Shown here piece by piece: positions 8,311-63,423 of a stretch of 64,000 nt of DNA. Each line of letters opens with the position of its first letter. Within the stretch, counting starts at the first letter, position 1. The stretch is from positions 124,001 to 188,000 of the forward strand of contig NZ_JNLQ01000001.1 of assembly GCF_000703165.1 (NCBI RefSeq), read 5' to 3'. Origin of the DNA: Butyrivibrio sp. AE3004 (GTDB lineage: Bacteria; Bacillota; Clostridia; Lachnospirales; Lachnospiraceae). The notes under the pieces were generated by a model. It was given only the letters and a program-made list of their open reading frames with translations. It ran no database searches and had not been told where the DNA came from. The translations under genes were made by a program, and so were the position numbers.

Positions 8311-10032
8311 TCAGAGTACTTTAACACTCTTTGCGCTGCTCCACTTGGAATAAATCTTGTTTTTTCCGGATTTCTTAAAGGTTCTGATGCGTATATAGTA
8401 CTTCTTCCCTGATTTGAGTTTTTTAATATTTTTCGATGTAACTTTCTCTGAATTAACAGAAATCGTCTTTACATTTTTCTTAAACTTTTTATCAAGACTA
8501 TATTGAATTTCATATCCTTTAATGTCTTTAGACTGCTTCTTCCATGAAATTTTAACGGATTTCTTACCGGAATCTAATTTAGTTATGCTGCTGCTCTTCT
8601 GTTTTTTATCTATCTGCTCAGTCTTTTCTTCGGATAATTCCTTTGATTCGCTCTCAGACTCGGATTTAGCAGAAGGATCTTCGCAAATAGTGAAATTTCG
8701 GGATATTGTACCGGTATAATTTCCGCAACCGGTCGCTATCACTGTTGCTGTTCCTACATCAACATTATTTGTATAGGATAACAAGTAATCCTTATCTAAC
8801 GATAGTAAGCAATTATTTGTATCTGTTAGTATTAGAATCGGTTCTATCGGTTTTCCATTACAAATAAATAATGTTTTTGGCATAGATACAATCACGTTGT
8901 CAAGTGATTTGGGTACTATCTTAAATTCTTTAGTAACAGAACCCGTATAATCATTTATTCCTGTAACTGTCACTAAAGCAAATCCGGCATTATAATTATT
9001 TGAATATGTTAAAGTATAGTCAGAATAAGCAGTAAGAGAATTACCATTCATAGTAACATTTACTTTAGGGTTTATCGGATCATCACAATATGTGTATTCT
9101 GTTTTTTCTAATGTAACCATGTCCTCGGTAATAGGTATACGTTCCTTAGGAAAAAAATCCTCTTTGGCAAATGTATATCCAGGCATATACTTATTTATAA
9201 GCTCTTTATGGGTACTGCTACTATTGATAGAATCCATTCCCTCGAGGAAATCATCAAAAGCATAGTCAATCACATACCATTTTTCATTCAGTTCAACCAC
9301 ATTAAATGCGTGGCTTACTTCGCCATACATATAAGCTCCGCCAATTATATATGAATTTATTCCGGTTAGTTCACAGAATCGTTGAATAGTGCAGGCATAG
9401 GTTGAACAGCAATAACCCGTTCCGTCGCCAAATAAACATCCGTATATTCCGTTACAATTTCTCGGATAACCTGTTTCAGAATCCTTTCCCTCAGGTACAT
9501 TTTGCTTCATCCACTGATAAAGGTATTTTAATTTTTCAGCATCTGTTGTGGCTTTGCTATCTGCCATAATCTGCTTTAATTTCTGATCTGCTTTGGCAAG
9601 CTCATCATCATTATCATGATAGGTAAACACTATTTTATAAAAATTGTAGCCTTCTGCAGATTTGTCCGCCTTTCTCCCCTCGCAGCCCGGACCACTGAAT
9701 ACATCATAATCCATAGCGTTAAACAAGCCACCGCAATATCCATAATGGAAATAGTTATAGATAGAACTGTCAAGATCAATCCACCCCTCTTTGGGGTTCT
9801 CTATTGTAACCTTGGATGGATTAGCACGGATAACAACAGTTTCTTGATGCGTTGCCCTTGCTTTCATTAGAATATCAATTACCTCTTTGGTAGTTTCAGC
9901 ACTGAAATATTTGTCTGTATCAAAATCCTCATCCGGATATGTTGAATACGCTCTACTATTTTGTACCGATAAAATGAGAATAAAAAAGAATAAAAGAACA
10001 ACACAGAATGATTTCTTCAGCCTTTTGAGCAT
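8311..10032 (-). CDS. Secreted transglutaminase-like protein with Ig-like and fibronectin III domains
   Basis: Extracellular or wall-associated protein of 573 residues. It has a signal peptide (MLKRLKKSFCVVLLFFFILI, then a cut after an Ala site). The transglutaminase/protease-like core spans about residues 100-265, with Cys208-Cys209 in GYCCSTYA, a downstream SHAFN His and a VIDYAFDD Asp forming the family's Cys-His-Asp triad. Two Ig-like repeats follow, each with a YTGS/YTGT...F(K)I ending, then a Ser/Glu linker and a C-terminal fibronectin type III domain (SVKISWKKQ...KYYIRIRTF). Start chosen at ATG 10032 with GGGAGGG upstream; ATG 10062 lacks a site. It may cleave or crosslink peptide or wall material; the substrate is unknown. 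Its upstream region carries the phased TTATAAA repeats. Confidence 0.8.
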   Translation of the reverse strand: MLKRLKKSFCVVLLFFFILILSVQNSRAYSTYPDEDFDTDKYFSAETTKEVIDILMKARATHQETVVIRANPSKVTIENPKEGWIDLDSSIYNYFHYGYCGGLFNAMDYDVFSGPGCEGRKADKSAEGYNFYKIVFTYHDNDDELAKADQKLKQIMADSKATTDAEKLKYLYQWMKQNVPEGKDSETGYPRNCNGIYGCLFGDGTGYCCSTYACTIQRFCELTGINSYIIGGAYMYGEVSHAFNVVELNEKWYVIDYAFDDFLEGMDSINSSSTHKELINKYMPGYTFAKEDFFPKERIPITEDMVTLEKTEYTYCDDPINPKVNVTMNGNSLTAYSDYTLTYSNNYNAGFALVTVTGINDYTGSVTKEFKIVPKSLDNVIVSMPKTLFICNGKPIEPILILTDTNNCLLSLDKDYLLSYTNNVDVGTATVIATGCGNYTGTISRNFTICEDPSAKSESESESKELSEEKTEQIDKKQKSSSITKLDSGKKSVKISWKKQSKDIKGYEIQYSLDKKFKKNVKTISVNSEKVTSKNIKKLKSGKKYYIRIRTFKKSGKNKIYSKWSSAKSVKVL

Positions 10033-53088: not shown

Positions 53089-53259
53089 TCAATAGTATCC
53101 TGTACTTTTTCTTGTGGGAATTCTGAAAAACCGCTCAAAATCTAGGCTGGTGCAACATGCCTTTTTATGAAAAAAATGTAGAGAATTTCTTTGATATATG
53201 GTATTCTATCCACAGGCTGTTTGATGTCGCAGCCATATAACATTTCGAGGATAACAACA

Positions 53260-54186
53260 GTGGCAAAAGAAAAAGATACAGAAAAAAATGAAATCACTCC
53301 AGTATCCGAAACCGTGATACGGAGCCTAATTTACACAGTCCGTGGGCAACAGGTTATGTTGGACAGTGACTTGGCTATGCTATATCAAGTCGAGACCAGA
53401 AGGCTTAACGAAAGTGTGAAGCGTAATATCGGTCGTTTCCCAGAGTCTTTTTGCTTTCAAATGACCAAAGAAGAATATAATTCTTTGAAGTCGCAAATTG
53501 CGACATCAAACAATGAAGGTCGTGGTGGACGCAGAAAGCTCCCTTACTGCTTTACAGAGCCAGGTATAGCCATGCTATCCGCTGTTCTCCACAGTGATAC
53601 TGCTGTAAATGTCAGCGTCCGTATAATGAATACTTTCGTTGAAATGCGTAGATTTATATCTAACAACGCTTTGCTATTTGAAAAAATCAGCAATGTCGAA
53701 TTGAAGCAGTTGGAGTTCCAAAAGGAGACCGATGCAAAATTCGATAAAGTATTCGATTACATTTCAGATCATGCTGAGTCAGAACAAAAAATATTCTACG
53801 ATGGTCAGATTTACGACGCTTTCAGCCTTATAGCTTCTCTTATCCAAAAAGCAAAGAAAAGCCTGTCACTGATTGATGGATACGTTGATATTAAGACGCT
53901 GAATCTTCTTGCCAAGAAAAAGAAGGGTGTAGCCGTAACAATATACACTCACCCAAAAACGACTTTGAGCCAGACTGATATCAGTAATTTTAACCGCCAA
54001 TACCCCAGTCTTACAGTCAAAGGAACAACCATATTCCATGACCGTTTTTTGGTAATCGATGATACTGATGTGTATCATATTGGTGCCTCTATCAAGGACG
54101 CTGGCACTAAATGCTTCGGAATAACATTGATCCAGGATAAACAAATGGCTAGCGACCTAATCAAGAGACTAAAAACAATAAAATAA
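53260..54186 (+). CDS. ORF6N-domain protein with PLD-like C-terminus
   Basis: A 308-residue protein. The N-terminal ORF6N (KilA-N-like) DNA-binding domain has VMLDSDLAMLYQVETRRLNE, VKRNIGRFPESFCFQMT and GGRRKLPYCFTEPGIAMLS. A coiled linker follows, then a phospholipase-D-like domain with FHDRFLVIDD and HIGASIKDAGTKCFGI. Start chosen at GTG 53260, with GAGG 9 nt upstream; an ATG at 53191 lacks a site. Found widely on prophages and in Firmicute genomes; function unknown. A palindrome inside the gene recurs just after its stop. Confidence 0.82.
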   Translation: MAKEKDTEKNEITPVSETVIRSLIYTVRGQQVMLDSDLAMLYQVETRRLNESVKRNIGRFPESFCFQMTKEEYNSLKSQIATSNNEGRGGRRKLPYCFTEPGIAMLSAVLHSDTAVNVSVRIMNTFVEMRRFISNNALLFEKISNVELKQLEFQKETDAKFDKVFDYISDHAESEQKIFYDGQIYDAFSLIASLIQKAKKSLSLIDGYVDIKTLNLLAKKKKGVAVTIYTHPKTTLSQTDISNFNRQYPSLTVKGTTIFHDRFLVIDDTDVYHIGASIKDAGTKCFGITLIQDKQMASDLIKRLKTIK

Positions 54187-54757: not shown

Positions 54758-55381
54758 ATGGAAAAAATCTTTGGCTATATCCGTTATTATAAAAACGATA
54801 CAGAAAAAGACTTACAACAGTTAGATTCACAGCTCCGTTCCCTTGGAGTAACTAACGATAAGCTTATTTTCCATGAATTTGATAAGGGTACCAACAAGTA
54901 CAATACAATGTACAAAGAAATCCTACATCGGTCCACACCCGGTGACACAATCATCACCACAGACTACACACGTATCTCCTATTCTCCCGTTAGCTTATAT
55001 AACCTTTTCAACACAATCAAAGAATATAAACTCCGTTTAATCATAGGAAATATCACTTTTGACTGTCGTGATGACACACTCTCCGACCATACAAAAGGTA
55101 TGCTTGATATGTTATCCATCATAAATGATATGGTATCTGATGCTTCTGAGAAACGGTCAAGTATAGCTGAAAGTAAAGGGAATAAACTCGGAAGAAATGC
55201 TCTGCAATATGATGATTTACCTGAGGATTTCAGGAAGCTTTACCCAGCTATAAAGAATAAAGATGTCAGTACTACTGATGTCGCAAAGAAGTTAAACGTA
55301 TCAAGGAGAACTGTTTATCACTACATTTACATAGCTAAGGATTACGAGAAAGAAAATCATATAGACCTTTGTATTTCATAG
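54758..55381 (+). CDS. Serine-recombinase (resolvase) homologue without catalytic residues
   Basis: A 207-residue protein aligned with resolvase/invertase enzymes. GYIRYYKNDTEKDLQQLDSQ is at the start, where GYARVSTxDQ is expected; the catalytic Ser is Tyr. The FDRPxxxxL Arg is lost (KYNTMYKEIL), and DRLxR reads YTRISYS. The long helix (EKRSSIAESKGNKLGR) and C-terminal HTH (STTDVAKKLNVSRRTVYHYI) are intact. It should still bind DNA and dimerise but not cut. AGGA lies about 10 nt before ATG 54758. Preceded by a 26-bp palindrome and followed by an 18-bp-stem terminator, so a self-contained unit; a transcription regulator made from a recombinase is plausible. Confidence 0.75.
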   Translation: MEKIFGYIRYYKNDTEKDLQQLDSQLRSLGVTNDKLIFHEFDKGTNKYNTMYKEILHRSTPGDTIITTDYTRISYSPVSLYNLFNTIKEYKLRLIIGNITFDCRDDTLSDHTKGMLDMLSIINDMVSDASEKRSSIAESKGNKLGRNALQYDDLPEDFRKLYPAIKNKDVSTTDVAKKLNVSRRTVYHYIYIAKDYEKENHIDLCIS

Positions 55382-56710: not shown

Positions 56711-56719
56711 TGCTATAAT
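56711..56719 (+). promoter_or_regulatory. Extended -10 promoter of the structured RNA
   Basis: TGCTATAAT is a perfect extended -10 (TGnTATAAT). The -35 region is only T-rich. A start near 56725 is expected, reading right, toward and against the 3' end of the TnpB-like gene. Confidence 0.6.
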
Positions 56720-56724
56720 ATCCA

Positions 56725-56898
56725 CAGGTTGAATTAGCACCCTTCCGCAAGGAGAAAGGTTTATGGAAATCAGCCAGTGTCTGTTATGCTCTTGTTGACA
56801 GAAGAAACTGACGTACATAGCCACTGTTTTACAGTCTAAAGGATTGACAACTAAATATAAAAAAGTCAAAAAGTCAGTGCCCAGGCATTGATTTTTTT
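56725..56898 (+). ncRNA. Structured ~170-nt RNA, guide-RNA-like, convergent with the TnpB-like gene
   Basis: Between an extended -10 promoter and a terminator lie three local hairpins: CCTTCC-GCAA-GG..AAGG (56741-56759, GNRA loop); CAGTGTCTGT with ACAGAAGAAACTG (56775-56810); ACTGT-TTT-ACAGT (56823-56835). Then AAAGGATTGACAAC (56838-56851), an A-rich 20-mer, and the terminator TCAGTGC-CCAG-GCATTGA plus seven T (56874-56898). The terminator pairs better as RNA of this strand (G-U pairs that become A-C mismatches on the other). Scaffold first, unstructured spacer-like stretch last, is the layout of TnpB omega-RNAs and Cas12f guides. An 11-codon ORF (MEISQCLLCSC at 56763) with AGGAG upstream is an alternative: a leader peptide. 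Confidence 0.5.
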
Positions 56899-56903
56899 GT
56901 TGC

Positions 56904-58298
56904 CTATTTCATCTCAAAAAGTTCCTTTGCATAAAAATCCCTATAATCCTCTATCTTCGAATCAATATGCAGTTTACATTTTTTTAAACCATCATATCCC
57001 CTCTGCTGAAGCTTCATATCCATAAGACTAACGATCATAGCTGGGGCATTTTCCATTATAGCTTTACCAGCTTTCTTTTTGCTCTTAGCTGTTCCCCTTT
57101 TCGTCAGTTCTTCACCTTCAGAAAACGTCTGTCTTGCAGCAGCTCTTGAAAATGAATAATCATTGATATTGATATCATGTCCCATTTCCAAAATCTCATT
57201 TGCGATCATGTTTGCTCGTATCTTACGTTTCTCACCTTGGATACGTCTGATATCCGCCAGTCGAGCTTTAGCTTTCATGTAGTTATTAGAATAATTCCAC
57301 TTTAGGGAAATACGATGTTTATTTTCATAAACACCCTTTTTAATGGTCCCGTCTTCATTAAAATTTTCCGCATTGCTGATACGTTTGGATCTGTCCATGA
57401 ACTGCTGCAGTTCACCAATATCCTTTTCCCTGTCATCATGCAGTCGGATATTTATTTTTTCGATATTCTCCCCATCAAAAACAGTAATGGATGTAGTATC
57501 TATGTATACCCCAAGCTTTTTATCTCCTATTGGATGCAGAGTTTTCCCATCATTATCCTTCTTTATATATGGAGCACCATCGACAACAAGCTGAACGGCA
57601 TAGCGGCTTCTGCCCTTTATGTTCTTTCTAATAAGACGGACAACCTTTATGTCATGCTCTATCATCTTCATAAGATATATATCTTTACGGTCTAATATAA
57701 GAGGCATCATCAGATTCTTCCCAGCTTTAGACCTATATGAACACCAATACTCCTCATCAGGACTCATGTTTTTAACGGATTTGCCCTTCTTATTTGCAAT
57801 GACCATACCGCTTAGATTGTTGGTTATCAGGGTATGCAATTCTCCGGGCTTTTTGAAATAAACCTTTTTAGCATTTCCGTAGATTTTCTTCTGAAAAGCA
57901 GCCCACATAGGAATTCCAATAGAACGTATTACTACATTTGATGGGATAACATCTGCAAAATGCTTGGCATGTATAGAAGCTATGCTACGAAAATGGAAAT
58001 CTGTAAAACCATTATCCATCATGAGTTGTTTTTCCTGTTGCACAGCCTGCTTGTATTCAAGAGAATTCTTGAGTTCTTTCTTCTTTTCTTTGTCAGTTTC
58101 TCTGTAAGCTTGATAAATGGTGTCGATACACTTCTTATATTCAACAGAATTAAGCATCTTCTCATATGTCTTGATACGTTCAGAAAGCATAGCATTATAA
58201 ATACTGCGACATATCTCCATACGTTTCTCAAGTAAATCTTCCTGCCACTTTTCAGTTTTAAGGGGAATTGTAATTGTTGTGACTTTAGAGTTTGGCAT
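56904..58298 (-). CDS. TnpB/Cas12-like RuvC protein, probably nuclease-compromised
   Basis: A 464-residue protein of the TnpB (IS200/IS605 OrfB)/Cas12 group. The RuvC-I Asp is kept (D267, KLGVYIDTTSITVF). The family's NFNEDGTIKKG and the following helical SNNYMKAKARLADIRRIQGE are present. At the RuvC-II position, where relatives have Glu before xMxF, there is Asn379 (HDININDYSF). The CxxC zinc ribbon before RuvC-III is missing; a YRDFYAK near the end may hold the third Asp. DNA cutting is therefore doubtful, while RNA-guided binding could remain. Start ATG 58298 has GGGAGG 7 nt upstream. A structured RNA unit converges on its 3' end. Could also be simply a decaying transposase. Confidence 0.7.
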   Translation of the reverse strand: MPNSKVTTITIPLKTEKWQEDLLEKRMEICRSIYNAMLSERIKTYEKMLNSVEYKKCIDTIYQAYRETDKEKKKELKNSLEYKQAVQQEKQLMMDNGFTDFHFRSIASIHAKHFADVIPSNVVIRSIGIPMWAAFQKKIYGNAKKVYFKKPGELHTLITNNLSGMVIANKKGKSVKNMSPDEEYWCSYRSKAGKNLMMPLILDRKDIYLMKMIEHDIKVVRLIRKNIKGRSRYAVQLVVDGAPYIKKDNDGKTLHPIGDKKLGVYIDTTSITVFDGENIEKINIRLHDDREKDIGELQQFMDRSKRISNAENFNEDGTIKKGVYENKHRISLKWNYSNNYMKAKARLADIRRIQGEKRKIRANMIANEILEMGHDININDYSFSRAAARQTFSEGEELTKRGTAKSKKKAGKAIMENAPAMIVSLMDMKLQQRGYDGLKKCKLHIDSKIEDYRDFYAKELFEMK

Positions 58299-58452: not shown

Positions 58453-61400
58453 TTACTTTTTCTTACTTGTCTTCTTGTTGAACTTCTTAACAAGTTTAAC
58501 TCTACCCTTCTTGTAAGCCTTTGACTTCTTGAGGTTCTTGATGTTGGTCTTCTTGTTCTTACCGGTAATCTTGATCTGTGTTCCCTTCTTAGCCTTCAGG
58601 AGTGACTTGAATGCGCTCTTTGAAAGCTTAGCATCCTTAACAGAGATGTACTTAACCTTACTGTTTGCGAATGCCTTAGGATCGATGCTTGTGATGTTTC
58701 CGGTAATGTTGATCTGAGTAACATCAGAATCTGCAAACGCATTAGCTGCGATAGAAGTTACCTTGTACTCGTTACCAGCAGAATCCTTAACGGTTGCAGG
58801 AATTGCGCATGTTCCAGACATGTCGGCTGTTCCCTTGAAGGATACTTCGAACTTCTCAGGATTTGTTACTACATAACCGGTTTCTTTACCTGTTGTAGCA
58901 TCCTTAAGTTCTGTGCCAGCTGCGGGAGCCTTACCTGTTGTAGAACCATCAGACTTCTTGTCAGCGTCAGCCTTAGCTGCCTTAGCTGCTGCGGTTGCAT
59001 CTGTAGCTGCCTTGAGGTCTTCATCAGTTGCGCCAGCTGCCTTTGCTGCTGCGATTGCATCGTCAGCTGCCTTGATGTTAGCTTCTGTAGGAGCTGCCTT
59101 TGCTGCCTCAGCTGCCTTGTTAGCTGCTGTGATTGCATCTGCCTTTGCTGCATCCTTATCATCAGCTGCCTTCTTAGCTGTCTCTGCGCTTGCTACCTTA
59201 GTAGAAGCATCTGCAAGATCTTCATCAGAAGCTCCTGCTGTCTTAGCATCTTCGATTGCCTTCTTAGCTGCTGCAATATTATCTGCTGTAGGCTCTGATT
59301 CTGCCTTCTTAGCTGCATCGTTAGCTGCTGTGATTGCATCTGCCTTAGCCTTTGCCTTATCAGCTGCGTCCTTAGCTGCCTTAGCTGCCTTAGCTGCAGT
59401 TGCTGCTGCTTCATTAGTTGCTTTTGCTTCAGTTACGAGTGCTTCAGCATCAGTTGTATCAAGACCAAGATCCTTTGCTGACTTAATAGCATCATCAGCT
59501 GCCTTAGCTGCTGCATCTGCCTTTGCGATTGCTTCATCAGCTGCCTTGATGTTCTCAGCTGTAGGAGCTTTTTCTGCTGCATCAGCTGCCTTCTTAGCTG
59601 CTTCTGCTGCTGCTTTTGCTGCATCTGCTGCATCATTTGCTGCGTTGATAGCATCTGCCTGCTCCTCGGTTTCAGAAACACTTACTTTGCATGTTGCGCT
59701 GTAGTTTCCAGATGTTGCAGTAATTATTACATCTGCGGTTGTAGCTGCAACGGGCTCTATAGTAGCCGTTCCATCACCATTATCAGTGAGTTTAACATAT
59801 TTTCCATTTGTATCACTTGAAGTCCAGATAAGCTCATCTGCTGTGTATGAAGGTGTTCTTGTTGCAGTGATTGTTGCACTGTCACCACCTACTGCAAGAG
59901 CAATTGCTGACTCATCAATGTCAATTGATGTTGTCGGAGCAGTAGCAATAACATTTACATTAACAATCTTAGAAAGTGTCTTATAAGTAGCTGTTACAGC
60001 AACTGCAGCTGTTGTAACCTTAAGACCACTTATCTTGTTACCATCAATCTTTACAAATTCTTCATCTGCAGAATTGATTTTCAAAGTAATATCATCAGTT
60101 ACATCTTCGATACCATTCATGGCTGTTAATTCAAGAGCACCATTTACAGCTACATTCTGTGCTGTTGTGTATGTTCCACCATTTGCAGGTTCTGCTCCTG
60201 CTCCGGCGAGTTTTGATCCTTCACTGTAAAGGACAAGATTTGCTGCGTTTACAGTAAGAGTAATTGTTGCATCCTTAATGTCCTTATCTGTTGCATCAAA
60301 CTTGATTGTAGCAGTACCAACAGCCTTAGCAGTTACAAGACCGGATGTATTTACTGTTGCAACGGATGAGTTACTTGAAGTCCACTCACCTTCAACATCC
60401 TTACCACCTGCAAGTGCATAGTATGCTCTAACATTTCCTACAGAAAGAGCATCTTTCTTGACATCTGATACTCTAGATCCGGTAGAATCATCATAGAAAA
60501 GTTCTGTTTCTTTCGTAGACTTAACTGTTACAATGTAAGCAGTTGAATTCTTCCATGTCTTTCCATCGATTGTACCAGTTACTGTAATGTTAGATGTACC
60601 CGGAGCAATGCCCTTAAGTGTTCCAGTTGCAGAATCAATTGTTACTCTTGAAGGTGTATTACTTGTAAATGTGAATTCTCCCTCAAGCTGTTCGCCATCA
60701 ACAAATACACCAAGGGTTCTTTCTTCACCTTCATAGATAGTAAGTTTGTTTGCAGATGTGTTATCGTAATCATCAACTGCTGCAATTGTAGGAGTAGCTT
60801 TAGCAGGTTCTGAAACAGAAACCACGATTGTTTTTGAAAGTTTTCCGTACTTCGCAGTTACATTAGCGGTACCTTTACCAACCGCTGTAATAACACCACC
60901 ATCGAATGTCGCAACATTCTCATCGTCAGATGTAAATGTTGTTTCTTCGTTTGAGGTCATATCTACAGTATCAACTTTAACAGCAATGTTTACATAGTCA
61001 CCAACTGTGAGTGTTGCGGTTGTTACAGGTGATTTACTATCAAGTGCACCAGCAACGCCCTTACCACTTGCTGTCTTACCATTTTTGGACTCCAACGTCA
61101 TGGATGCAGCTGCAACATTAACTGTAATCTGTGCGCTCTTAACAGCTGTTCCTTCACTTGGTGTATACTTAGCTTCTACTTTATATGTTCCGCTTGCAGT
61201 AGCCTTGAAAGCACCGCCTACAGCAGTTGCTGTATCTGCTACAGTTGTGCCGTCTGCTTTATATACAGTCCATTCTACATCACTGTCACCTGATATATCC
61301 TTTGTTCCGGCGCCAAGTCTTGTTGCTTTGAGCTGTTTAGCGATATTGAGATAAGCAGTTCCTGTAGCTGCACCATCAATTGAAGCAGTTACAGTATCAT

Positions 61401-63423
61401 TTACAGCATTAACAAATCTGAATGTATTTGTCTTTGCAGCAGGCTCAGCTCCATTAATACTTTCTGGCTGATATGAAACAGTTACATCAATATTGCCTGT
61501 ATATGTTCTCTTTACATGAACCAAACCATCAGAAGTAATTTCAGCTGCTGACGAAGGCTTTACTGACCATGTGATCTTGCTAGCATCAGCTTCTGTAAGT
61601 TTTGTTGAATTAGCAGGATCGGTAATATATGCATGCAATTGCACATCAGAACCTAAGTATATGGGGCCTGCTGTAGGACCTGTTGTAGGAGATGAAACGC
61701 TTACAGCTGTCTTAGCAGAATTAAGACCTGTGCTGATAACAAGGCCTGCACCTTCTTCAGCACCAACCGTAAACTCATATGCTTCATATATAAGATCCTT
61801 ATTTGGTATGGAATCTGTATATACAGCCGTTGCTGTTCCAAGTTGATAGTTAGCTGCAACAAGGTAGTATTTACCTTTTGTTGTAACCGCGGCGTCATTA
61901 AACTGTACCTGAGCAGATCCACTAAGATTACCTGAAGCCATACTGAATGGTTTTGTACCTGCAGCAACAGTTGCAAAGTTAGTATTATCAAGTAAATTAG
62001 TTAACGGTGATGAATCAAATTCTTTACCATTACCTACAGTCTTTTCAGCCGCATCTTCAATTGCATAAACAAGTTTGTTATAATCTGCTTCTGAGAATAT
62101 TGCCCAATAAAAATCTTTATTTCCTGAATTATATGTTGGATCAGCAATATTCAAATCTGTAGTTGCCTTAACAGTAATTGAACCCTGTCCAGCTGCAATG
62201 TTATTTGATGTATCATTACTGCTCATGGTCATGGACTTTGCATTATCCATGTAAACAGTGATTGCTTTGGAGGTATTACCAGATGCAGTCTTAATAAGCT
62301 TCGAGTCTGTTATATTATTTGTAGAAAGTTTTACGCCCCAAGCCTGGAGATAATAAGTTCCACTTTCATCAACATCTTTACAGGTGCTTAAATTTACATT
62401 AACTGTTCCTGTTGTTCCTGTAGTTACACCACTATCGAATTTATTTGTGTCATCTGTCCAATCTGTATCACCACTTACAAGTGTAGTAAGCTCTTCTTTA
62501 CTGACAGATATAAGCACTTTATCATAAATACTATTTTTTGTAAGACTAGTACCAACAGAGTATGCAGTATTGGATTTTAGTGCCTCATCTGCTGTGACTG
62601 TCAAATCAGTTGTTAAAGTATTTGATGATATGTTTGCATCACTTGTTGTTATAGTTGCCATGGCAACATCTTCCCAAACAGGAGTTGCTGCAAATTTATT
62701 TCTTGTAACCTGTGCTGTTACTGTTACAACGTCAGTAGTTGAAGGAAGATTCCATACGGATGAAAACATTGATGACTCATCTGCTGTACTTCCCGTAACA
62801 CTATCAGTACCACTAGCAGCGGTCAATTTACCACTATTTGCTCCAGTAGCTACAACTCTCCATGCTTCGCAATTAAGAATGTCTCTTTCAGGTGTAACTG
62901 TTAACGTCAATGCTGTGCCTACAGGCGCTGTATAAGAACCTGCGGAACCTTGAACATCATCGCCTGCTACTGCAATTGTTGTTGCATCCTGAACTGATTC
63001 GCCAACACTGAAAACATACGAATGGCCAGAAATATCAGCATAGTTAGAACTGTCCCCCTGAGCCTTAATAGTCGTATCCCCAGCTGCTAAGGTTGCAACT
63101 GTACTAAGAGCATCCTTTGAAGCGTCGGTTTTCCACTCAGATGGATCAAAACTCGCTCCATTGTCGCCATCTAACTTCCTATGTGTTGATGTTGTGTTCT
63201 CAGCAACATCAGCTGAAGAAGTATAAGCCAAATTTATAGTACCAGCCTGATTGACTTTCCATGTTTTTGTATTAACTTCTGTTGGTGTGGCAGTACCAGC
63301 CGTAGCCACTAAATCGCCTGCATTCGCTGCAAACGCAGTCATAGGCATAGCCACCGCACTCAAGTTACTTACAGCCAACGCACCGGCCAGTGCATATGAC
63401 CATAACTTTTTGTTTTTCTTCAT
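58453..63423 (-). CDS. Giant Ig-like/alanine-rich repeat surface protein
   Basis: A 1656-residue secreted protein. A signal peptide ends near MTAFA-AN. A Thr/Ser/Asn-rich beta region runs to about 640, then at least four Big_2-type Ig-like domains to about 1240 (for example VTAKAVGTATIKF; SVATVNTSGLVTA). An alanine-rich helical stalk follows (about 1250-1495), built from units opening ADAI(N/T)AAN and containing PTxxNIxAA. The C-terminus is an LRR-like module (ITSIDPKAFANSKVKYISVK) with a basic Lys-rich tail (KKFNKKTSKKK), perhaps for wall or envelope binding. AAGGGG precedes ATG 63423. Its size and structured 5' region suggest a major surface or S-layer-like protein. No LPxTG motif or S-layer-homology domain is seen. 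Confidence 0.8.
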   Translation of the reverse strand: MKKNKKLWSYALAGALAVSNLSAVAMPMTAFAANAGDLVATAGTATPTEVNTKTWKVNQAGTINLAYTSSADVAENTTSTHRKLDGDNGASFDPSEWKTDASKDALSTVATLAAGDTTIKAQGDSSNYADISGHSYVFSVGESVQDATTIAVAGDDVQGSAGSYTAPVGTALTLTVTPERDILNCEAWRVVATGANSGKLTAASGTDSVTGSTADESSMFSSVWNLPSTTDVVTVTAQVTRNKFAATPVWEDVAMATITTSDANISSNTLTTDLTVTADEALKSNTAYSVGTSLTKNSIYDKVLISVSKEELTTLVSGDTDWTDDTNKFDSGVTTGTTGTVNVNLSTCKDVDESGTYYLQAWGVKLSTNNITDSKLIKTASGNTSKAITVYMDNAKSMTMSSNDTSNNIAAGQGSITVKATTDLNIADPTYNSGNKDFYWAIFSEADYNKLVYAIEDAAEKTVGNGKEFDSSPLTNLLDNTNFATVAAGTKPFSMASGNLSGSAQVQFNDAAVTTKGKYYLVAANYQLGTATAVYTDSIPNKDLIYEAYEFTVGAEEGAGLVISTGLNSAKTAVSVSSPTTGPTAGPIYLGSDVQLHAYITDPANSTKLTEADASKITWSVKPSSAAEITSDGLVHVKRTYTGNIDVTVSYQPESINGAEPAAKTNTFRFVNAVNDTVTASIDGAATGTAYLNIAKQLKATRLGAGTKDISGDSDVEWTVYKADGTTVADTATAVGGAFKATASGTYKVEAKYTPSEGTAVKSAQITVNVAAASMTLESKNGKTASGKGVAGALDSKSPVTTATLTVGDYVNIAVKVDTVDMTSNEETTFTSDDENVATFDGGVITAVGKGTANVTAKYGKLSKTIVVSVSEPAKATPTIAAVDDYDNTSANKLTIYEGEERTLGVFVDGEQLEGEFTFTSNTPSRVTIDSATGTLKGIAPGTSNITVTGTIDGKTWKNSTAYIVTVKSTKETELFYDDSTGSRVSDVKKDALSVGNVRAYYALAGGKDVEGEWTSSNSSVATVNTSGLVTAKAVGTATIKFDATDKDIKDATITLTVNAANLVLYSEGSKLAGAGAEPANGGTYTTAQNVAVNGALELTAMNGIEDVTDDITLKINSADEEFVKIDGNKISGLKVTTAAVAVTATYKTLSKIVNVNVIATAPTTSIDIDESAIALAVGGDSATITATRTPSYTADELIWTSSDTNGKYVKLTDNGDGTATIEPVAATTADVIITATSGNYSATCKVSVSETEEQADAINAANDAADAAKAAAEAAKKAADAAEKAPTAENIKAADEAIAKADAAAKAADDAIKSAKDLGLDTTDAEALVTEAKATNEAAATAAKAAKAAKDAADKAKAKADAITAANDAAKKAESEPTADNIAAAKKAIEDAKTAGASDEDLADASTKVASAETAKKAADDKDAAKADAITAANKAAEAAKAAPTEANIKAADDAIAAAKAAGATDEDLKAATDATAAAKAAKADADKKSDGSTTGKAPAAGTELKDATTGKETGYVVTNPEKFEVSFKGTADMSGTCAIPATVKDSAGNEYKVTSIAANAFADSDVTQINITGNITSIDPKAFANSKVKYISVKDAKLSKSAFKSLLKAKKGTQIKITGKNKKTNIKNLKKSKAYKKGRVKLVKKFNKKTSKKK

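Follow-up and report, generated by a model that had tools for sequence, protein, structure and literature searches.

A nuclease-dead TnpB/Cas12-like protein and a putative natural single guide RNA at an array-less locus of Butyrivibrio

Features of the locus

The stretch of DNA analysed here (the window) covers 64 kb of the 4.47 Mb genome of Butyrivibrio sp. AE3004 (G000:C1:124001-188000). It holds the gene of a 464-residue TnpB/Cas12-like protein and, convergent with it on the other strand, a compact guide-RNA-like unit, which together could form an RNA-guided DNA-binding system related to clustered regularly interspaced short palindromic repeats (CRISPR). Both elements had been described in an earlier note made from the sequence alone. 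The features are listed below, where tracrRNA stands for trans-activating CRISPR RNA, R1 is a covariance model described further on, and L024 is the related locus of Butyrivibrio sp. AE2015 (genome G306, same genus).

56904..58298, minus strand: P0001, nuclease-dead TnpB/Cas12-like protein of 464 aa (open reading frame)
56711..56719, plus strand: extended -10 element TGCTATAAT of the guide-RNA unit (from the sequence; similar element in L024)
56726..56829, plus strand: tracrRNA-like scaffold (R1, 68.1 bits, E 7.8e-13; the sequence belongs to the R1 training set)
56743..56754, plus strand: GNRA-capped hairpin TTCC GCAA GGAG (sequence and folding)
56762..56819, plus strand: nested stems P1 (56762-56765/56816-56819), P2 (56770-56773/56808-56811) and P3 (56780-56784/56798-56802) (folding and covariation)
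56823..56835, plus strand: proposed fused anti-repeat:repeat hairpin ACTGT-TTT-ACAGT
56838..56851, plus strand: repeat-like 3' end AAAGGATTGACAAC, located where CRISPR repeats of phages end in ...AAGGGTRTCRRAC
56852..56871, plus strand: putative guide, its last 4 nt inside the terminator stem
56868..56897, plus strand: terminator-like hairpin and U tract between guide and gene end (folding)

Loss of the RuvC active site

The computed analysis assigned the window protein to the TnpB fold, with WED/REC and RuvC parts. To describe its active site, residue columns were scored over 105 listed family proteins and 10 longer relatives. The window protein carries Asn379 in place of the RuvC-II Glu, and Asn occupies this column in 105 of 105 family members, while all 10 longer relatives have Glu, so that the nuclease-dead TnpB/Cas12-like protein proposed earlier was borne out. 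The RuvC-I Asp column corresponds to residue 265, which is Tyr in the window and Tyr (86), Phe (17), His (1) or Val (1) in the family, against Asp in 10/10 longer relatives. None of the 105 members has D at 265 or E at 379, and the D-E-D triad of active TnpB/Cas12 proteins is therefore absent. The earlier note had taken Asp267 as the catalytic Asp, an assignment that had to be given up: this residue lies two positions past the RuvC-I column and is Asp in 94/105 family members, but Gly in 10/10 longer relatives (GVYIDTTS aligns over GLDIGPQT). The RuvC-III column, residue 454, is Asp in the window, yet in just 6/105 members. No zinc ribbon was seen on reading the protein, which stops at residue 464, again as described before. 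Loss of the RuvC active site is a trait of the whole protein family, and the window protein answers to the description of a TldR as a TnpB-like protein with an inactivated RuvC.

No PADLOC model matched three dead-family members, two longer relatives scored weakly as Cas12u4/Cas12f, NCBIfam scores were far under the cut-off, and PDB chains gave no sequence match to the dead-family profile at E 1. A match to HTH_OrfB was the sole IS200/IS605-type trait seen, no systematic search for tnpA or insertion sequence (IS) ends having been made.

The guide-RNA unit and its relatives

The unit described before is present with all its parts: a promoter-like element of its own (with the counterpart TGATATAAT at the same place in L024), the hairpins and AAAGGATTGACAAC, then an A-rich stretch that begins at 56852, and the terminator stem, in scaffold-then-guide order. 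A two-hexamer promoter scan did not list the extended -10 at 56711-56719, and a terminator scan did not list the hairpin at 56868-56897, probably since the stem extends into the U tract. The proposed fused hairpin has the counterpart GGGG-ATTT-CCCT in L024; the minimum-energy fold of the window RNA favours a different pairing slightly downstream. Folding energy is modest (z -1.88; 6/200 shuffles fold equally well or better), and Rfam gave nothing over the window RNA and three sub-threshold matches elsewhere. That the RNA goes beyond chance is thus supported by its homology to RNAs at other loci and not by its folding energy.

These homologues are tracrRNA-like RNAs adjoining the CRISPR arrays of family members on three viral contigs and in one bacterial metagenome-assembled genome (MAG), where the conserved RNA precedes the arrays on the array's own strand. 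Nine copies from six dead-gene loci were aligned and used to build R1. Unguided RNAalifold on these copies gave 20 pairs, 16 of them with at least one both-sided change, and such changes occur in each consensus helix. With hand-chosen arms, the four helices paired at 30/30, 43/43, 36/37 and 58/59 positions, as compared to 0.45-0.58 when arms were swapped between loci (P1 was scored in 7/9 copies). Conservation and covariation of the RNA alongside homologues of the protein, a test set beforehand, were thereby found.

An R1 search of 50 sources detected a third cassette in L065 (82.8 bits) and, in active relatives, the stretch between gene and array (L026, 33.1 bits; L025, 32.6 bits). Other matches were L069 (29.5 bits) and a further place in L066/L077 (26.6 bits), followed by weak ones in L021 (22.2 bits, E 0.05) and L075 (17.6 bits, E 0.6). 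The repeat-end pattern occurs in 77 stretches of the viral contigs, in several copies only in the known contigs; on 46 of these stretches, unrelated by protein, the best R1 score was 14.2 bits. In the third L065 cassette (L065:3821-4030) the repeats are degenerate and the anti-repeat is altered together with its repeat.

In 11 cassettes chosen by hand, which comprise 10 distinct arm pairs (without a swap control), the anti-repeat pairs with its own repeat at 71/72 positions. By this pairing and by its position before the arrays, the RNA of the relatives classes as a tracrRNA, and judging by homology the window scaffold is its equivalent with a fused repeat-like end. In both the window and L024 the scaffold runs without a gap into this end and then into a guide of 16-20 nt, starting from its own extended -10. 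The window RNA consequently resembles a tracrRNA and a repeat fused together, as would come from a locus of CRISPR type. The IS605 omega-RNA frame of the earlier note, which had missed the viral loci, was replaced.

Loci of the relatives and their distribution

Scans of genome contigs and viral contigs gave six distinct loci with the dead gene: the window, L024, L027, L065, L066/L077 and L067 (gene partial). Three of the six lie on viral contigs, and L077 is a phage, since it carries endolysin, anti-repressor, RecT and FtsK-like genes. CRISPR arrays were found at 4/6 loci, with a spacing of mostly 61-67 and with 14 copies of the longer-running repeat family in L027, 4 in L065, 3 before and 5 after the gene in L077, and 4 and 4 in L067. 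An exact 14-mer test, which also misses the degenerate L077 array, found no array in the window (64 kb) or L024 (13 kb).

Among 79 same-genus genomes, the full-length dead protein was found at 1e-20 in two, the window genome and G306; five others gave truncated relatives (G337) or active proteins. Under stricter filters, R1 matched three of the 79 at 1e-6 or better, namely the two genomes that trained it and G303, with four further matches at E 0.16-0.6, and BLASTN with the window RNA matched only itself. At 1e-40, 397 genomes of the family gave 3 matches (dead in the window only) and 392 genomes of the order gave 9 (dead in G000 and G306 only). Plasmids gave 28 records, the best among the matches listed at 33%, and phages 8 records, the best also at 33%.

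The tracrRNA-like RNA of G303 (L315 about 8600-8702; G303:C3:106577-106678, minus strand; 48 bits) lies on a 361-kb contig. No dead protein was seen among the frames within about 8 kb, nor was there a 1e-20 protein match in G303. An ordinary zinc-ribbon TnpB gene lies at L315:4878-6029.

Two of the G337 relatives (L016, L021 and L023) stop after the WED part and before RuvC-I, leaving the N-terminal lobe only, and the third is cut by the contig end; on reading, a palindromic stretch recurs near them. Ten other relatives (L025, L026, L028, L029, L030, L035, L036, L038, L040 and L042) have 507-530 aa, D-E-D motifs and adjoining CRISPR-like repeats. Judging from these traits, they are compact type V systems, carried in MAGs including Prevotella; L025, the sole one of the ten given to PADLOC, scored weakly as Cas12f/Cas12u4.

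Guide sequence and target searches

After the repeat end, the guide reads TAAATATAAAAAAGTC in the window and TGAATATGAAAATCAC in L024. The first 12 nt are equal at 10 positions and the other two are A/G transitions (10/14 aligned columns). Identity then falls to 6/12 and 12/30, compared to 74/108 in the scaffold and 11/25 in the promoter region. This hints at a seed shared by both guides, though from only two loci of AT-rich DNA.

The L024 guide gave 11 sites in G306 including its own locus, against 4 for the control, a small excess whose sites were not read as a set. The pattern TRAATATRAAAA occurred at 53 sites in G000 and at 27 in G306, against 30 and 20 for the respective controls. Outside open frames of at least 70 aa lay 14 of the 53 sites in G000 (own locus included) and 6 of the 26 read in G306 (own locus left out). 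Upstream regions of surface genes gave a best guide-start match of 3 mismatches in 12. From the phage and MAG arrays 34 spacer stretches were listed, some lying after the last repeat, and a comparison with six sequences gave nothing better than 7 mismatches. A 16-nt exact spacer scan of the loci, leaving out phage-group pairs, had a single match, an L065 spacer in L027, which was taken as chance. In L024 the RNA reaches the protein gene: its guide part (L024:7395-7340) runs antisense to the final codons, with no terminator seen between.

Interpretation and alternative explanations

Since the DNA-cutting residues are lost and a guide-like fused RNA lies beside the gene, the protein probably sticks to chosen DNA without cutting it. 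Taking together the fold, the protein family, the loss of catalytic residues, the RNA homology with covariation and the arrays in relatives, we interpret the locus, with a probability of about 0.7, as a CRISPR-derived DNA binder that is nuclease-dead, has no array and is directed by a natural single guide RNA. It would descend from a compact nuclease-dead type V (TnpB/Cas12-like) CRISPR system with relatives in phages. A tracrRNA-like scaffold and one repeat would have become a single short RNA, whose own promoter points at the 3' end of the protein gene. The complex that we infer would most likely bind DNA through complementarity to the guide's first 12-16 nt (from 56852), and, once bound, could block transcription or replication at that site.

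Several observations weigh against this interpretation. The first 16 nt of the window guide, with up to 2 mismatches, gave 20 sites in its own genome including its own locus, against 36 for the reversed control; contexts were read for 18 of the 20 (all but the own locus and one site at the low end of the window), and the outside target that the earlier note had suggested searching for did not appear. The 12-nt TRAATATRAAAA sites of G000 and G306 showed no common promoter and no orthologous neighbour pair, and for 3 of the 34 listed spacers an exact 20- or 23-nt part matched only their own viral contigs, with no protospacer. If the terminator works in both directions, part of the A-rich guide could represent a U tract read from the other strand, and in L024 no terminator was seen, on reading, after the guide. 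Finally, the array-less loci known are two only, and G303 has the RNA without the protein.

Some of these observations would also fit a remnant, in which the window and L024 systems have lost their array and are decaying, and the stretch after the repeat end is an arbitrary flank without target. The array test, the fruitless target searches, the A-rich guide and the missing L024 terminator agree with it. However, both open frames are intact at 58% identity, in 5 of the 12 listed stem pairs both bases differ between the two loci with pairing preserved, the extended -10 is present in both, and the first 12 guide nt are kept about as well as the scaffold (10/14 against 74/108 columns). Decay is thus unlikely. 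The convergent arrangement, with the L024 RNA reading into the 3' end of the gene, could also suggest self-regulation, in which the RNA either directs the protein to the system's own promoter, as tracr-L does in S. pyogenes, or acts as antisense to the gene end in L024. This we consider distinctly unlikely, as the 12-nt guide start has at best 3 mismatches (window) or 2 (L024, inside a 122-aa gene) in its own upstream region, taken as chance without a control, and a terminator-like hairpin separates RNA and gene in the window. Cutting through a shifted site around Asp267 and Asp454 could appeal to the frequent Asp at 267, two residues from the RuvC-I column, and to the Asp454 of the window protein. 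With Asn at the RuvC-II Glu column in 105/105 members and Asp454 in only 6/105, it is very improbable.

If the single-guide DNA binder is real, nature would have its own version of the engineered pair of single guide RNA and dead Cas12, and the locus would show how CRISPR can lead back to a regulator with a single guide. This path is the reverse of the RNA splitting proposed for the origins of type V systems. With its compact proteins of about 460 aa, the family is also a candidate for programmable DNA binding, and its presence in phages raises the question of what they silence with it. We can only tentatively suggest, and rather doubt, a further step, i.e. that Butyrivibrio domesticated a dead type V effector of phage type as an RNA-guided transcription factor. 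The system would then have lost its array, fused tracrRNA with repeat into a natural single guide RNA and moved together with a large surface-protein gene; like TldR with flagellin, it might silence surface genes that compete.

Comparison with known systems

By analogy, the window unit may work like Cas12m, TldR and tracr-L. The guide RNA of TldR, like the omega-RNA of TnpB, lies on the gene's strand at its 3' end, unlike the RNA of the window and L024, which is on the opposite strand. LaTranC, an intermediate between TnpB and Cas12, is a nuclease, whereas the window family is dead; the two are set apart by description.

The following draws on the accessible parts of the papers cited. TldRs are nuclease-dead TnpB-like proteins; one phage clade acts as a repressor of host fliC, a clade linked to csrA uses a dual guide cut by RNase III, and the genes adjoin phage or host non-transposon genes (PMC13418256). 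Like them, the window family combines a TnpB-type protein whose RuvC is inactive with a guide-like RNA. It differs in that its RNA looks derived from tracrRNA and repeat and runs opposite to the gene, and in that its phage relatives have CRISPR arrays; this distinction is by description, not by sequence relation. Cas12m (V-M) is a compact protein too, with an array in its locus as in relatives of the window, and binds without cutting through a single CRISPR RNA (crRNA) and no tracrRNA (PMC11013384). As a tracrRNA-like RNA is present, the window unit is not V-M. The window RNA would resemble tracr-L of S. pyogenes, a natural single guide that derives from tracrRNA and has 11 nt complementary to the promoter; tracr-L belongs to a type II system with active Cas9 and is made beside normal crRNAs (PMC11417352). 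Inactivated type V systems include V-C, V-M, V-O, V-P, V-K and the variant Cas12b3, with independent RuvC losses and target binding shown or predicted (PMC12669027, PMC11656645); binding without cutting is shown for V-C and V-M and predicted for V-O and V-P (PMC12669027). The accessible parts name no array-less form for these subtypes, V-O and V-P being compared by description. An array-less dead type V protein with a fused guide was not found in the literature searched (titles and abstract openings, with most subscription papers outside). Within this literature TldR, Cas12m and tracr-L are known in kind; their combination did not turn up in it.

Neighbouring genes

The dead-protein gene is preceded, on its own strand, by the gene of a Big_2/LRR_5 surface-type protein (58453..63423, minus strand), linked to it by association only. 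In L024 a related surface-type gene is likewise upstream on the same strand, with the 122-aa gene between. Both surface proteins align over the first 50 residues (58%) and 130 C-terminal residues (38%); no other L024 neighbour matched any frame near the window locus. G000 has no close paralogue of the surface protein, and in G306 the only match is the gene adjoining the dead gene. The L024 surface protein matches 30 of the 79 same-genus genomes at 1e-8, mostly in its C-terminal part, and best in G322 (46% over residues 571-1154), a genome without a dead-protein match. Because of these widespread matches, also in genomes without the dead gene, the pairing is weak evidence and lends the analogy to FliC and TldR little support. 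The few neighbours that were scanned included no gene recognised as fliC or csrA.

The resolvase-domain protein at 54758-55381 of the window is probably inactive, as its N-terminus reads GYIRYYKND in the part that holds the catalytic Ser of active resolvases. Close to the locus, at 53191-54186, lies a phage-type gene with an ORF6N domain and a weak PLD-like match behind it.
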